Source: Pseudomonadota bacterium
GTDB lineage: Bacteria; Pseudomonadota; Alphaproteobacteria; Reyranellales; Reyranellaceae
Length of the DNA stretch: 64,000 nucleotides
NCBI GenBank assembly: GCA_018240745.1
Contig: JAFEFF010000191.1
Location: 1 to 64,000, forward strand
Direction of reading: 5' to 3'
The notes below the pieces were generated by a model that was given only the letters and a program-made list of their open reading frames with translations, did no database searches and had not been told where the DNA came from. Position numbers and translations under genes: made by a program. Each line of letters opens with the position of its first letter. Position 1 is the stretch's first letter. Positions 425 to 13,810 of this stretch are shown here, one piece after another.

Positions 425-1600
425 TCAGCGGCCGGCCGGTGCGGCAGCCCGCACGATGGCCCCGTCGGGCACCAGACCGAGGGTGAGGAAGCGCCACAGC
501 GCCACCATCAGCTTGCGCGCCAGGGCGACGATGGCGATGCGCTTGACGCGGCCCTTTTGATCGCCGACGCGCTGCTTGAACCACAGGCTCAAGGCGCTGT
601 CGGGCTGATAGCGCAGCCACAGCCAGCTCAGCTCGATCGCCAGGGTGCGGGCGCGGGCGTTGCCCGACTTGCTGATGCCCTGCTCGCGCGAGCTCTGGCC
701 GCTGTCGAACGGCGTCCCGGTCAACCCGAAATAGCTCCCGACCTGGCGCCGGTTCTGGAAGTCGCGCCAGAACACCTCGCTGACCAGCGTCTCGCTGCCG
801 ATCGGCCCGAGACTCCTCAGGCCGATCAGATGATTGACCCGACTGGCCCGGCTGCCCGGCGCGGCCGCGGCCCGCTCCGCCGCCATCTGACCCTCGACTT
901 CGGCGAGCTGCTCGCCGACCTGCGTCAGCCGGGCATGCTGCCGCCTGATCTCGGCCACCAGGTTGGGCGGCAGGGCGCGGCCGTCGCCGGTGCGCGCCCC
1001 GGCAAGCTGCGCGAGGAAGTCCCTGCGGCGCGGCTGCAGATCGCGCACCCCCTGGCCGTGCAACAAGCCCTTGATCCGGTTGACATGGCCGGTCCGCTCG
1101 CCGATCAGCCGGTCCCGCTCGCGCGACAGCCGGCGCGCGTCCTCCTGCTCGGGCGACGGCGGACGGACCACGCTGCACACCCGCGGCTCGCCGCCCTCGT
1201 GACGGATCAGCACCCGCATCAGGCGCTCGAGGTCCAGGCGGTCCGTCTTGGCTTGCCGCGCACGACGCGGCATCTCGATGCTCGACGGGTCGAGCACCCG
1301 ATTGGCAACCCCTTGTTCGGCAAGCCAGCGGTCGAGCCAGAAGCCGTCGTAACCCGCCTCGTAACAGCTCACCACCCGCACCGGCCGGCCCAGCTTCTTC
1401 GCCGCACAGGCCCGCTTCTTCGAGATCACCTGCCACACCGCCGCCGTATCGCCGCCATCGGCCGTGTGCCGGCTCATCTTGCTCTCGCCCGATACCACGG
1501 TCCCGATCAGCCACTTCGACTTGCTCAGTTCAAACGCAACGTACAACGTGGCATCCTTGTCCCCGGCGGCGGGGGTGTCGTTGAGATGTGAAGGCATCAT
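425..1600 (-). CDS. IS110-family transposase (DEDD recombinase)
   Basis: Protein of 391 residues, full family length. The N-terminal RuvC-like domain shows the acidic set as E24 (in FELSKSKW, where many family members have Asp), E81 (CYEAGYDGFW) and D120/D123 (KTDRLDLERL). A helical linker covers about 150-245. The C-terminal Transposase_20 domain (about 255-345) includes LIGLRSLGPIG and SREQGISKSGNARAR, which carries the serine expected to act as nucleophile. The gene is intact, with ribosome-binding site AGAGGA just before the ATG at 1600. IS110 enzymes move circular intermediates without classical terminal inverted repeats, so element ends cannot be read from symmetry. Shares a 98-base divergent gap with the GIY-YIG gene. 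Confidence 0.93.
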   Translation of the reverse strand: MMPSHLNDTPAAGDKDATLYVAFELSKSKWLIGTVVSGESKMSRHTADGGDTAAVWQVISKKRACAAKKLGRPVRVVSCYEAGYDGFWLDRWLAEQGVANRVLDPSSIEMPRRARQAKTDRLDLERLMRVLIRHEGGEPRVCSVVRPPSPEQEDARRLSRERDRLIGERTGHVNRIKGLLHGQGVRDLQPRRRDFLAQLAGARTGDGRALPPNLVAEIRRQHARLTQVGEQLAEVEGQMAAERAAAAPGSRASRVNHLIGLRSLGPIGSETLVSEVFWRDFQNRRQVGSYFGLTGTPFDSGQSSREQGISKSGNARARTLAIELSWLWLRYQPDSALSLWFKQRVGDQKGRVKRIAIVALARKLMVALWRFLTLGLVPDGAIVRAAAPAGR

Positions 1601-1610
1601 GAGTTCCTCT

Positions 1611-1641
1611 GTAGGTTCGGTTCTTGCAACTCCAAACCTAC
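1611..1641. repeat. Short inverted repeat upstream of the transposase
   Basis: Arms GTAGGTTCGG (1611-1620) and CCAAACCTAC (1632-1641) pair with one mismatch around an 11-base loop. The repeat lies 11 bases before the IS110 start codon on the transposase strand. It could be part of the 5' element end, an mRNA leader hairpin or an operator; nothing in the sequence decides between these. Confidence 0.45.
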
Positions 1642-1669
1642 CTCTCGACCTCTCGTCGCCACATAGAAT

Positions 1670-1688
1670 CTGAGCGAAGCGAAGGACC
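1670..1688 (+). repeat. Left arm of inverted repeat bracketing the GIY-YIG gene
   Basis: The 19-base arm reads CTGAGCGAAGCGAAGGACC. Its reverse complement occurs with one mismatch at 2015-2033. The arms stand 10 bases outside the start and stop codons of the enclosed gene. The motif also resembles the repeats at 31566-31639 and 36657-36773, so it belongs to a dispersed palindrome family. Confidence 0.75.
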
Positions 1689-1698
1689 TCATCGCCCT

Positions 1699-2004
1699 AT
1701 GAAAGAGCACCACTATTGGGTTTACATACTCGTCAGCAGCTCACTGAGTACGATGTACATCGGGGTGACGAACGACCTTGGCCGTCGGGTCGCCGAACAT
1801 CGCGCTGGCATCGGCAGCGAATTCGCCAAGAAATACAAGGCAACGCGGCTGGTCTATGCGGAGGAGTTCGAGCAGATCGAGGAGGCAATTGCCCGCGAGA
1901 AGCAGCTCAAAGGGTGGAAACGAATCCGGAAGAACGAACTCGTCCGCGCCGCCAACCCGACGTGGGCAGATCTGATGGAGAGTGATCCCCTTTCCTCGCA
2001 CTGA
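1699..2004 (+). CDS. GIY-YIG single-domain nuclease (UPF0213/YhbQ-like)
   Basis: Protein of 101 residues made almost entirely of one GIY-YIG nuclease domain. It shows the paired Tyr motifs (WVYILVSS then MYIGVTNDL), the conserved Arg in GRRVAEH and the metal-binding Glu in EAIAREKQLKGW. The ATG at 1699 was chosen because the family starts with this strand; the open frame extends upstream to 1624 but those codons read into the flanking repeat. Family members cut DNA in vitro, but their cellular role is poorly defined. The gene is bracketed by inverted copies of a dispersed repeat, giving a compact repeat-gene-repeat unit of 364 bases. Confidence 0.88.
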   Translation: MKEHHYWVYILVSSSLSTMYIGVTNDLGRRVAEHRAGIGSEFAKKYKATRLVYAEEFEQIEEAIAREKQLKGWKRIRKNELVRAANPTWADLMESDPLSSH

Positions 2005-6840: not shown

Positions 6841-7221
6841 CTAGTCGCAGATCTTGGGGTCGCTGGTCGCCTTCTTGAGATAGGCGATCAGGTCGGCCCG
6901 CTCCTGCGGATCCTTGACGCCGGCATAGCCCATCTTGGTGCCGGGCACCGTCTTCAGCGGATTCTCGATGAATTTGTCGAGCGTCTCCTCGTTCCAGGTG
7001 ACGCCGTACTTCTTCATCGCCGCCGAATACTGGTAGTTGGGCACGCTGCCGGCCTTGCGGCCGAACAGGCCGCAATGGCGCGGCCCGACACGGTTCTGCT
7101 CCAGCGCGTGGCAGGCCTTGCAACGCGTGTAGATCTCCTCGCCGCGTTCAGCATTGCCGTCGGCTGCCAGGACGGGGGCGCAGGTGAGCAGCCCAACGAG
7201 GAACGCGGCGAGGAGTCTCAT
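6841..7221 (-). CDS. Class I c-type cytochrome, periplasmic
   Basis: Protein of 126 residues with a signal peptide (MRLLAAFLVGLLTCAPVLA). It has one heme-attachment motif CKACH and the axial Met in GTKMGYAG, which is the layout of mitochondrial-like cytochrome c/c2. It carries electrons in the periplasm. The ATG at 7221 starts 7 bases after the stop of the ferritin-like gene, so the two are almost certainly co-transcribed. The donor and acceptor are not evident from the neighbours. Confidence 0.9.
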   Translation of the reverse strand: MRLLAAFLVGLLTCAPVLAADGNAERGEEIYTRCKACHALEQNRVGPRHCGLFGRKAGSVPNYQYSAAMKKYGVTWNEETLDKFIENPLKTVPGTKMGYAGVKDPQERADLIAYLKKATSDPKICD

Positions 7222-7228
7222 GGTTCGA

Positions 7229-7807
7229 TCAGGACACGAAGGCGTCGGGCACCGGGTTTTGGCCGAGCGCATTGCGCAGCACCGCCCAATGCATCGCCTC
7301 GTCGCCGAGGATCGAGGCCGCGGCCTTGGCGAGGTCCTTGTCGGTGAGGATCGGCACGGCGCCGAGATAGGCGCTGACCGCACCCTTCTCGAGCGAGGCG
7401 GCGAAGGTCAGCACGTCGTTCTGCGACTTCAGCTTTTCCTTCGGGAAGTGGTAGTCCTTCATCGGCACGACCGGCTTGCCGCCGAGTTTGGCCACCGCCT
7501 TGGCGAGCGCGTCGGCGTGTGCCTTGTGATGCCCCTGGAACTGGACCGCGAGGTCCTTCACCGGCTTCTGCAGCAGGCCGGACTCGGCACCAAGCTGGTA
7601 GGCGGCGATCGCCTGCTGCTCGGCGCCCAGCGCCGAGTTCAGGATGGTAACGTCGTTGTTGGCGGTCTGCGCCGAGGCGCTGCCGACCAGCCCCAGCTTT
7701 TCGTTGCCCGCCAGCAACGCGATGGCCGTTGCCGACAATGTGAAGCCCGACAGGAAGGTGCGACGCTTGCCGCAGGCCGGCAGAGGGTCGAGTTTGACGA
7801 TGGTCAT
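7229..7807 (-). CDS. Ferritin-like domain protein with Tat-type signal
   Basis: Protein of 192 residues. The N-terminus has a twin-arginine-like signal (KRRTFLSG, then a hydrophobic stretch ending GSASA), so the domain probably folds before export. The mature part is a four-helix ferritin-like bundle with candidate metal ligands in GAEQQAIAAY, FQGHHKAHAD, LEKGAVSAY and GDEAMHW. Similar exported ferritin-like proteins are often of unknown function. The ATG at 7807 follows GGGAGAAC. It is divergent from the sigma/anti-sigma fusion gene across 144 bases and is followed by the cytochrome c gene, suggesting an oxidative or metal stress unit. Confidence 0.8.
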   Translation of the reverse strand: MTIVKLDPLPACGKRRTFLSGFTLSATAIALLAGNEKLGLVGSASAQTANNDVTILNSALGAEQQAIAAYQLGAESGLLQKPVKDLAVQFQGHHKAHADALAKAVAKLGGKPVVPMKDYHFPKEKLKSQNDVLTFAASLEKGAVSAYLGAVPILTDKDLAKAAASILGDEAMHWAVLRNALGQNPVPDAFVS

Positions 7808-7830: not shown

Positions 7831-7887
7831 CGAACCGCGGTCCGTCGCTTTGGGAACCCCGGGCGGCCGCGGGATGGATGCGGTTCG
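7831..7887. promoter_or_regulatory. Divergent promoter region with an 8-base inverted repeat
   Basis: Between the ferritin-like gene and the sigma-factor gene, CGAACCGC (7831-7838) and GCGGTTCG (7880-7887) form a perfect inverted repeat 41 bases apart. GGAACC at 7852 resembles an ECF-type -35 element, but no matching -10 was convincing. Offered as a candidate control region only. Confidence 0.3.
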
Positions 7888-7951
7888 GGGGGCGTTTCTT
7901 TTTTTGCCGCCGGCTGCATCCGATCGCGGCGGCGGCGGGTAACAGGCTTTG

Positions 7952-8896
7952 ATGGGCGAGCTTCTCAATCTTCGTCGCGGCATGGCGCAGCTCGGTATGG
8001 CCGGGCCGCCGGCGGCACCGGCCGCGGTCGACTCCGCGTCCTTCGACCCGCTGGCGCGGCTGCTGGCCGATGTGGCGATGGGCAACGAGCGGTCGTTCGC
8101 CCGGCTGTACGAGCTGACCGGCGGCCGGCTGCTGGCGATCGCCCGCTCGATCGTCGGCCGGACCGATGTGGCCGAGGACGTGCTGCAGGACTCCTTCCTG
8201 CGCGTCTGGCGCTGGGCGCACCGCTTCGATCCGGCCAAGGGCTCGGCCTACGGCTGGCTGGTGCGGGTGGTCCGCAATCGCGCGCTCACCGCCAAGGCGA
8301 CCCTGCAGCGGCGTGAGCTTGGCCAGCAGCCGCTCGACGCCGAGACGCTGGTGCTGGGAGAGCCCGATCCGGCCGATCGCGCGATGCGCAGCGAGGCGGC
8401 GCGGCGGGTCAATTCGTGCCTCGCCAACCTGCCGGCCAATCACCGCCGCTCGGTGTCGCTGGTCTATTTCGAAGGCCTGACCCATAGCGAACTGGCCGAC
8501 CGCCTGGGCGTCCAGCTCGGCACCGCCAAGAGCTGGGTGCGGCGTGGGCTCGCCCAGATGAACCGTTGCCTCACCGGCACCGAACCCGACGGCCGCGAGC
8601 TGGTGGCGGCCGAATATGCGGCGGGAGGGCTGGGCGGCGTGGTGCGCCGCGGCTTCGAACGTCGCCGTGAGCGCGACGCCCGTTACTGCCGCGCGGTCGA
8701 TGTCTGGGAGGATCGGCTGGCGTTGCTGACGGAATTCCTGCCCGACACCGGACCGGCGCCCAGCCATGTCTGGACCCGGATCGAGCAGGGGTTGGCCCGC
8801 GACCGGGTCGCGGTGCCGCGTCTGCTGCTCTGGAAGCTCGCGACCGCCGTCCTGGCGCTCGCCGTCGTCGCCTTGCTGGTCAAGTTGGCGGTTTAG
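7952..8896 (+). CDS. ECF sigma factor fused to an RskA-like anti-sigma segment and membrane anchor
   Basis: Protein of 314 residues. Sigma region 2 covers about 34-112 (FARLYELTGGRLLAIARSIV, then DVAEDVLQDSFLRVWRWA) and sigma region 4 about 148-205 (LANLPANHRRSVSLVYFEGL, then the helix-turn-helix SELADRLGVQLGTAKSWVRR). Residues 214-280 look like the start of a RskA-type anti-sigma factor (LVAAEYAAGGLGGVV, VDVWEDRLALLTEFLP, SHVWTRIEQGL). One membrane helix follows at about 291-310 and the protein ends there, without a periplasmic sensor domain. ECF factors are usually about 170-200 residues with a separate anti-sigma gene. The ATG at 7952 is preceded by an in-frame TTG; the exact start is uncertain. 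Confidence 0.85.
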   Translation: MGELLNLRRGMAQLGMAGPPAAPAAVDSASFDPLARLLADVAMGNERSFARLYELTGGRLLAIARSIVGRTDVAEDVLQDSFLRVWRWAHRFDPAKGSAYGWLVRVVRNRALTAKATLQRRELGQQPLDAETLVLGEPDPADRAMRSEAARRVNSCLANLPANHRRSVSLVYFEGLTHSELADRLGVQLGTAKSWVRRGLAQMNRCLTGTEPDGRELVAAEYAAGGLGGVVRRGFERRRERDARYCRAVDVWEDRLALLTEFLPDTGPAPSHVWTRIEQGLARDRVAVPRLLLWKLATAVLALAVVALLVKLAV

Positions 8897-8987: not shown

Positions 8988-9536
8988 CTATGCCAGGGGT
9001 TCTGGCTCGCCCGGCGGCAGCGGCATCTCGAAGACGTTGAGCGTCATCGACACCAGCATGTAGTAGCCACAGACGCCCACCAGATCGACCACGCCCGACT
9101 CGCCGAACGCGTCGACCGCACGCTTGTAGTTGACCGACGAGACGCGGTTGGTCGCGAGATACTCCGTGACGAAATCGTGGACGATGCGCTCGACATCACG
9201 GGTGAAGGGCGGCGTCTGGCGGGTGCGGATCGCCTCGACGATCTCGGCCGAGAGGCCGGCCTCGCGGACAAGGCGGGCATGGGCATAGAACTCGTACTGC
9301 GCCTTGAGGTGGCGGCCGACCAGGCAGATCGCGAGCTCGCTGAGGTCGCGCGGCAGCGAGTTGTTGAAGCGGCAGTATTCGCCAAGCTTCTGTGCGCGGT
9401 CAGCGAGCTCGGGCCGGCGCAGCCAGGGCTCGAACGGGCCGCGCAGGCCGCCGCGTGGGCCGGCGACGATGGCATCGGCGGCCTTCTTCTGTTCGGGCGT
9501 GAGCTTCTCGAGGTCGAGCGGAGCCAGACGCGGCAT
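8988..9536 (-). CDS. Carboxymuconolactone decarboxylase (AhpD-like) family protein
   Basis: Protein of 182 residues with the all-helical AhpD/CMD fold pattern (RDLSELAICLVGRHLKAQYE, then FYAHARLVREAGLS). The redox CxxC of true AhpD is absent: the equivalent position reads AQYEFYAH, with a single Cys in ELAIC. It is thus unlikely to be a disulfide-cycling peroxidase partner. It is nearer the carboxymuconolactone decarboxylase-like branch often found in aromatic or solvent metabolism. No aromatic pathway genes adjoin it. The start follows GGAAG. Confidence 0.8.
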   Translation of the reverse strand: MPRLAPLDLEKLTPEQKKAADAIVAGPRGGLRGPFEPWLRRPELADRAQKLGEYCRFNNSLPRDLSELAICLVGRHLKAQYEFYAHARLVREAGLSAEIVEAIRTRQTPPFTRDVERIVHDFVTEYLATNRVSSVNYKRAVDAFGESGVVDLVGVCGYYMLVSMTLNVFEMPLPPGEPEPLA

Positions 9537-13162: not shown

Positions 13163-13810
13163 CTACTGGTCGTCGTCGAAGCCGCGCTTGCGCGGCTCGT
13201 AATCGCGCTCGCGACGATGCGGACCGCCGTCACGCCGACGCTGCGGACGACCTGCGTCGCCGCCGCCACCGGCAGCGGCGCCGGGATCGAACCCGCCGCC
13301 ACCGCCGCCGCCCGAGAAGTCGGCACGACGGTCGCGCATCGGGCCGCCATCGCCGGACGGCGCACCGCGGTATCCACCGCCGCCACCGCCGCCGTAGCCG
13401 CCGCCACCACCGCCGCCGCGATAGCCACCGCCGCCGCCGCCGCCGTAGCCGCCACCACCACCGCCGCCGCCATAGGGCGGACGCGGGCCGCGCGGGCGGA
13501 AGCCGCCGCCATCGCGGCCACCGCCGCCGCCGCCAAATCCGCCGCCGCCACCACCGCCGGGCTGACGCTCGACGGCTTCACGGACGGCGATCGAGCGGCC
13601 GTCGAGGAGAGATCCGTTCATGGCCTGCATCGCTGCAGAGCCCTGATCGTCGGTTTCCATCTCGAGGAAGGCGAAGCCACGGCTGCGGCCGGTCTCGCGA
13701 TCCACGATCACTTTCGAAGAGGTAACGGTGCCGAACTGGGAGAAGGCTTCTTGCAAACGCTCGGACGTGACCGAATAGGGCAGATTGCCCACAAACAATT
13801 TACGACTCAT
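13163..13810 (-). CDS. RRM RNA-binding protein with a glycine-rich tail
   Basis: Protein of 215 residues. One RRM domain covers about 1-80, with RNP2 as KLFVGNLPYS and RNP1 as RSRGFAFLEM. The rest is Gly/Arg/Tyr-rich (GGGGYGGGGG-type repeats), ending in a charged RRERDYEPRKRGFDDDQ tail. Such proteins resemble cyanobacterial Rbp and plant GRP proteins and are linked to cold adaptation and RNA chaperoning; the disordered tail could support condensation. A 400-base gap without genes lies upstream and a strong terminator downstream, so it is transcribed alone. Confidence 0.93.
   Translation of the reverse strand: MSRKLFVGNLPYSVTSERLQEAFSQFGTVTSSKVIVDRETGRSRGFAFLEMETDDQGSAAMQAMNGSLLDGRSIAVREAVERQPGGGGGGGFGGGGGGRDGGGFRPRGPRPPYGGGGGGGGYGGGGGGGYRGGGGGGGYGGGGGGGYRGAPSGDGGPMRDRRADFSGGGGGGGFDPGAAAGGGGDAGRPQRRRDGGPHRRERDYEPRKRGFDDDQ

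Follow-up and report, generated by a model that had tools for sequence, protein, structure and literature searches.

A SigK-like ECF sigma factor fused to an RskA-type anti-sigma domain and a putative C-terminal tail anchor in Reyranella and other Alphaproteobacteria

The window (the whole stretch of 64,000 nucleotides analysed here) contains a gene that encodes, in one uninterrupted chain, a SigK-like ECF sigma factor, an RskA-type anti-sigma domain and a terminal hydrophobic helix. We propose that the product is a cis-inhibited, tail-anchored sigma factor that has lost sensing of the outside and is probably gated from the cytosol, perhaps by thiol chemistry, a reading that we regard as about evenly balanced between right and wrong. 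At the level of sequence comparison, the order of the domains, their conservation throughout the clade, purifying selection, a conserved pair of promoter-like motifs, the small number of motif sites and the conserved cysteines are established. The features of the locus, together with other genes of the window, are shown in Table 1.

Table 1. Coordinates of the fused gene, its parts, its neighbours and other genes of the window.
Feature	Position	Strand	Basis or remark
Fused ECF sigma factor / RskA-type anti-sigma / tail anchor	7952..8896	+	Intact ORF, 314 aa plus stop; coding part 7952-8893, stop up to 8896
Sigma-70 region 2, residues 52-120	8105..8311	+	Pfam PF04542 (Sigma70_r2), 2.1e-16
Sigma-70 region 4, residues 152-203	8405..8560	+	Pfam PF08281 (Sigma70_r4_2), 9.5e-11
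Cys156, aligned to SigK Cys133	8417..8419	+	HMM alignment to 4nqw_A
Cys206, aligned to SigK Cys183	8567..8569	+	HMM alignment to 4nqw_A
RskA-type anti-sigma domain, residues 214-290	8591..8821	+	NCBIfam, hhalign, model
Cys246 in anti-sigma domain	8687..8689	+	17/17 fused proteins, 0/16 separate anti-sigmas
Putative C-terminal membrane helix, about residues 291-314, essentially tail-less	8822..8893	+	Hydropathy; model helix
Promoter-like motif GCATCC-N-GGGTA upstream of fused gene	7916..7941	+	Conserved motif
Inverted copy of promoter-like motif, toward ferritin-like gene	7855..7881	-	Conserved motif
Twin-arginine-signal ferritin-like protein (Ferritin_2), inferred target	7229..7807	-	Pfam PF13668, 1e-36
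Cytochrome c with signal peptide, inferred target downstream of ferritin-like gene	6841..7221	-	Pfam PF00034, 1.4e-8
Carboxymuconolactone-decarboxylase-like gene, adjoining fused gene	8988-9536	-	
IS110-family transposase	425-1600	-	Transposase_20, 2.5e-10
Small GIY-YIG domain protein	1624-2004	+	6e-16
RNA-recognition-motif protein with long glycine-rich tail	13163-13810	-	RRM_1, 1e-21

Domain architecture

Pfam finds σ2 and σ4 but neither σ1 nor σ3 in the protein, the composition of an ECF sigma factor, and the TIGR02937 model scores 81.6 bits on the fused chain against a cut-off of 42.9. The best solved match is SigK (4nqw_A, 8.4e-33), and the NCBIfam SigK model PRK09646 gives 126 bits, which is below its cut-off of 226; judged by these alignments the protein is SigK-like and not SigK.

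A sequence-only reading of this DNA had recognised the start of an RskA-type anti-sigma factor in the segment that follows σ4, and profile comparison bears this out. The NCBIfam 'antisigma' model NF052375 matches the C-terminal part (3e-6, profile positions 2-99 of 217) as well as the homologous C-termini of all nine proteins tested, and hhalign aligns the fused segment with eight separate RskA proteins (E=1.1e-17, probability 98.9%) over RskA columns 1-117 of 243, the RskA_C half being absent from it. By both comparisons the segment is an N-terminal anti-sigma domain of class I (RskA/ASDI-type). This homology is visible only through NCBIfam and profile-profile comparison, the Pfam search of the C-terminal part having returned no anti-sigma match. 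Pfam likewise returned no zinc-finger (ZAS) match in the C-terminal extension, and the segment has a single conserved cysteine. A sequence search of the PDB with the C-terminal alignment gave nothing, even at E 10, so that the RskA chain of 4NQW is unmatched by sequence; the VIA/Foldseek rows span mainly residues 31-211.

The chain ends in a hydrophobic helix (Kyte-Doolittle mean of 2.63 over residues 296-314), as had been supposed, and this helix, which runs unbroken from residue 271 to 313 in the AlphaFold model, would presumably be inserted in the membrane. It is present in 15 of 17 fused homologues, with 0-5 residues past the best 19-residue hydrophobic stretch, and its retention in so many suggests that it usually matters. 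The two that have lost it (G035 and G421) nevertheless keep the fusion, the promoters and the targets. A frameshift was considered as the source of the missing helix in these two genomes and rejected, since their other frames show no membrane helix. The claim that a periplasmic domain is absent also stands: RskA_C (PF10099) was sought in 15 fused proteins without a match and was detected in one separate relative, and there is no FecR-like periplasmic region and no residue beyond the helix of the window protein.

Distribution, origin and selection

Whether homologues keep the fusion had been left as a check, and close homologues do: it is intact in 17 genomes, with neither a stop codon nor a frameshift between the two parts in any of them. 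It occurs in 14 of 65 Reyranella species genomes, in one other member of the same order (G037), and in two other alphaproteobacterial lineages (G046 and the Rhodobiaceae UBA4490). When five candidates of each genome were scored, a sample of 385 genomes from the class yielded fused proteins only in G000, G015 and G046, all known already, and a sample of 398 genomes from the phylum yielded no further fusion; scoring to this depth may have overlooked distant fusions in other groups.

In a tree of 47 sigma domains (17 fused and 30 unfused) the fused ones fall on one side of a single branch (80/92), which is moderate support with the bootstrap value not settled. Relatives outside this group carry the sigma and anti-sigma factors as two genes, the latter being in some cases a complete RskA that includes the helix and the periplasmic domain and in the others an RskA-like N-terminal domain joined to a ChrR-type cupin. 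The two-gene state of the more distant relatives indicates that the fusion is derived and not an error. In two more distant genomes (L096 and L097) the anti-sigma gene lies 3' of the sigma stop codon, TGA, in the same frame and thus one codon from fusion, a layout that shows how the loss of one stop could make such a protein.

Measured against five relatives, the ASDI part has a dN/dS of 0.10-0.39, and this fused part is therefore under purifying selection. Values for the sigma part are similar (0.14-0.30), and the helix is looser than either (0.49-0.88), as expected where hydrophobicity alone matters. A sequencing or frameshift artefact is ruled out by the open fusion in 17 genomes together with the low dN/dS of the ASDI part.

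Predicted structure and conserved cysteines

The AlphaFold model of the full-length protein, built on 15 related sequences, has a pLDDT of 77 and a pTM of 0.72, and places the helices of the anti-sigma domain at residues 214-224, 229-241, 243-262 and from 271 onward. Its best match is SigK of the SigK-RskA complex (4nqw_A; Z 15.0, rmsd 3.7 Å over 148 aa), whereas a control model of σ2-σ4 alone (pTM 0.46) has an rmsd of 12.6 Å to 4nqw_A over the same 148 aa. The difference indicates that, in prediction, the C-terminal part moves σ2 and σ4 into the inhibited arrangement of SigK-RskA, and a cis-inhibited arrangement is what the model predicts for the fused protein.

The two σ4 cysteines, C156 and C206, are invariant in all 47 sigma domains of the tree, and since they are equally conserved in unfused relatives they are no special mark of the fused design. 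Their spacing of 50 residues is kept in 17 of 17 fused proteins, and in 11 of these C156, C206 and C246 are the sole cysteines. The redox state of the SigK counterparts, C133 and C183, affects the SigK-RskA interaction, and activation requires these cysteines (PMC7509140). C246 could, as an alternative to a redox role, have a structural one.

Neighbouring genes, promoter-like motifs and the inferred regulon

Genes for the ferritin-like protein and cytochrome c adjoin the fused gene in 16 of 17 loci, divergently in 14 and as downstream co-directional genes in G046 and UBA4490. A ferritin-like gene is also found at seven unfused relatives (G008, G196, G066, G220, G244, G267 and G402), several of them with the cytochrome as well. 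In one of these, the Reyranella G008 (L032, 4236-6580, minus strand), the genes for the sigma factor, an RskA_N-cupin anti-sigma, the ferritin-like protein and cytochrome c are co-directional, and the locus has the same targets as the fused loci with another type of sensor. At G437 (L041, 3230-4315 and upstream) the fused sigma factor and its own promoter are kept, dioxygenase-like genes have taken the place of the ferritin-like and cytochrome genes, and the ferritin-facing -10 has decayed. The carboxymuconolactone-decarboxylase-like neighbour is kept at many Reyranella loci and is absent beside the fused gene in G037, G021, G035 and G046.

A motif GCATCC-N15-GGGTA stands 5' of the fused gene at all 17 loci, with the variant GAGGTA in G037, and an inverted GCATCC-N15/16-GGGTT or close variant points toward the ferritin side in 15 of 15 divergent layouts, a count that includes G437 despite its loss of the ferritin gene. 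The co-directional G046 and UBA4490 have a single motif, at the fused gene only, and in G196 and G066 (L050, L051) the same motif lies between the anti-sigma and ferritin genes. The -35 of SigK is of the CATCC type and similar to the motif of the window. We infer from this conservation that the pair acts as two promoters, and a motif so shared argues for the ferritin-like/cytochrome pair as targets, as the sequence-only reading had suggested.

Strict matches to GCATCC-N15-GGGTW number two in the window, against 0.06 expected, and three in the 5.9 Mb genome, of which two are at the fused locus and the third lies within a glycogen-branching-enzyme-like ORF; in G032 there are two, both at the fused locus. 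No wider regulon was found with the strict motif across the whole genome, and with strict sites almost confined to the locus, the inferred regulon is the fused locus itself.

An ECF29-type motif, in which GCATCC would be the -10 (PMC6180224), was also considered and ruled out; the conserved second block is found close to the start codon, 3' of GCATCC, and a conserved GGGAAC is absent 5' of GCATCC. In the window and in G023 the -10 of the fused-gene promoter ends 10 nt 5' of the ATG, a distance that suggests an mRNA without a leader. In most other species 22-25 nt separate the -10 from the ATG, with an AGGAG-type ribosome site.

Comparison with known systems

The closest system by sequence and fold is SigK-RskA (ECF18/19, class I anti-sigma domain, PDB 4NQW), which shares with the window protein two redox cysteines 50 residues apart and the helices of the anti-sigma domain. 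It consists of two proteins, of which RskA carries a periplasmic RskA_C, whereas the window protein is one chain without RskA_C. Cys246 has no equivalent in 16 separate anti-sigma relatives, and oxidation of SigK reportedly stabilises or tightens its complex with RskA and does not release it.

That anti-sigma factors are normally separate proteins, as the sequence-only reading had it, is true as the norm, but a fusion is not unprecedented: IutY, released by Prc and RseP, is documented, and the ECF48, ECF52 and ECF53 groups are predicted (PMC8999054). Like the window protein, IutY of Pseudomonas putida (ECF243) holds a sigma factor and a membrane-bound anti-sigma in one chain; it differs in that it serves cell-surface signalling of the FecR type, which involves a periplasmic part, a receptor, an iron-carrier signal and activation by RIP. 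Members of ECF48, ECF52 and ECF53 (SCO4117, for example) also have a C-terminal anti-sigma-like segment and a membrane helix, but these are actinobacterial proteins with a zinc-finger (ZAS) domain, long extensions and extracytoplasmic domains. The RskA_N-Cupin_7 anti-sigma at related ferritin-linked loci resembles ChrR of the SigE-ChrR system (Rhodobacter sphaeroides); ChrR is a soluble, separate protein with zinc and a cupin, whereas the window protein has no cupin. What sets the window protein apart from the known fusions is the RskA-type domain, a sensor half that is lost entirely, a tail anchor replacing the receptor, and the extra cysteine. In the open full-text literature, outside which most subscription papers lie, we found neither a description of an RskA-type fusion nor a paper on sigma factors of Reyranella.

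Proposed mechanism and alternatives

In the mechanism that we favour, the protein joins a SigK-like ECF sigma factor in one chain with two parts of an RskA-type anti-sigma factor, its cytosolic half and its membrane helix. The inhibitor domain would fold back between σ2 and σ4 of its own chain and so keep RNA polymerase off, and the last ~20 residues would form a C-terminal tail anchor that holds the complex in the membrane. With the outside sensor lost, sensing probably takes place in the cytosol. The likeliest sensor would be the conserved cysteines, C156 and C206 in σ4 together with the clade-specific C246 in the anti-sigma domain, and their thiol state would make the cis complex looser or tighter; once freed, the sigma factor would use the two matching promoters to transcribe the gene that encodes it and, divergently, the ferritin-like/cytochrome c pair. 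Thiol gating, in whichever direction it would act, is the best candidate for the switch. Its most specific form, in which C156/C206 would form a thiol link or exchange with C246 and so switch the inhibitor in cis, placing sensor, inhibitor and activator in 314 residues that act on two promoters, we advance as a tentative possibility.

Under thiol gating anchoring is the sole role of the helix, and this sits ill with its retention in 15 of 17 fused proteins. That retention speaks for proteolytic release, which the sequence-only reading had named as a way of freeing the sigma factor and which, by analogy with IutY, would proceed by an RseP- or site-2-type cut in or near the membrane and subsequent trimming, site-1 cleavage being bypassed because the periplasmic domain is missing. 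IutY is freed by Prc and RseP, and the same route is expected for ECF48, ECF52 and ECF53 (PMC8999054); RskA itself is cleaved by Rip1 (PMC7509140). However, G035 and G421 dispense with the helix and keep the fusion, the promoters and the targets, the 0-5 residues past the helix offer nothing for sensing on the outside, site-1 cleavage has lost its gating domain, and ferritin-linked relatives have a soluble cupin anti-sigma. The missing outside domain, the loss of the helix in two species and the soluble cupin anti-sigmas at related loci make a cytosolic signal likelier than proteolysis started from the outside, and we consider proteolytic release, now the less supported route, to be rather unlikely.

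It is also conceivable, if improbable, that the protein is a constitutive sigma factor of low activity, truncated, permanently damped and without a signal, in which the fused domain would do no more than limit sigma activity and tie the sigma level to autoregulation. The absence of a sensor domain and the few motif sites would agree with this, as would the nearest RskA truncations made in the laboratory, 1-86 and 1-121 (M. tuberculosis) and 1-85 (Yersinia), which gave no activated state (PMC7509140), but the preservation of the fusion, the promoter pair and the third cysteine across several lineages, with the low dN/dS of the ASDI part, exceeds what a passive remnant would be expected to keep. 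Very improbable is a C-terminal domain that gates the sigma factor through a partner protein or ligand, such as an iron-status reporter, and not through thiols or proteolysis; in its favour are the nature of the targets, a ferritin-like protein and cytochrome c, and the cupin of related anti-sigmas at such loci, to which metal or a ligand could bind, but the fused form has no added ligand-binding domain and, besides the targets, no partner gene is conserved across all 17 loci.

Significance

Cis inhibition of a tail-anchored, SigK-like sigma factor would make this locus a natural minimal test of anti-sigma action, in which evolution has removed the sensor half and locked the partners at 1:1, and in which the inferred regulon has shrunk to two promoters sharing a single intergenic region. 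It could show whether an RskA-type domain gates its sigma factor without proteolysis from the outside, a question that arises from work on the dual function of RskA, and it would offer a compact switch encoded by one gene.
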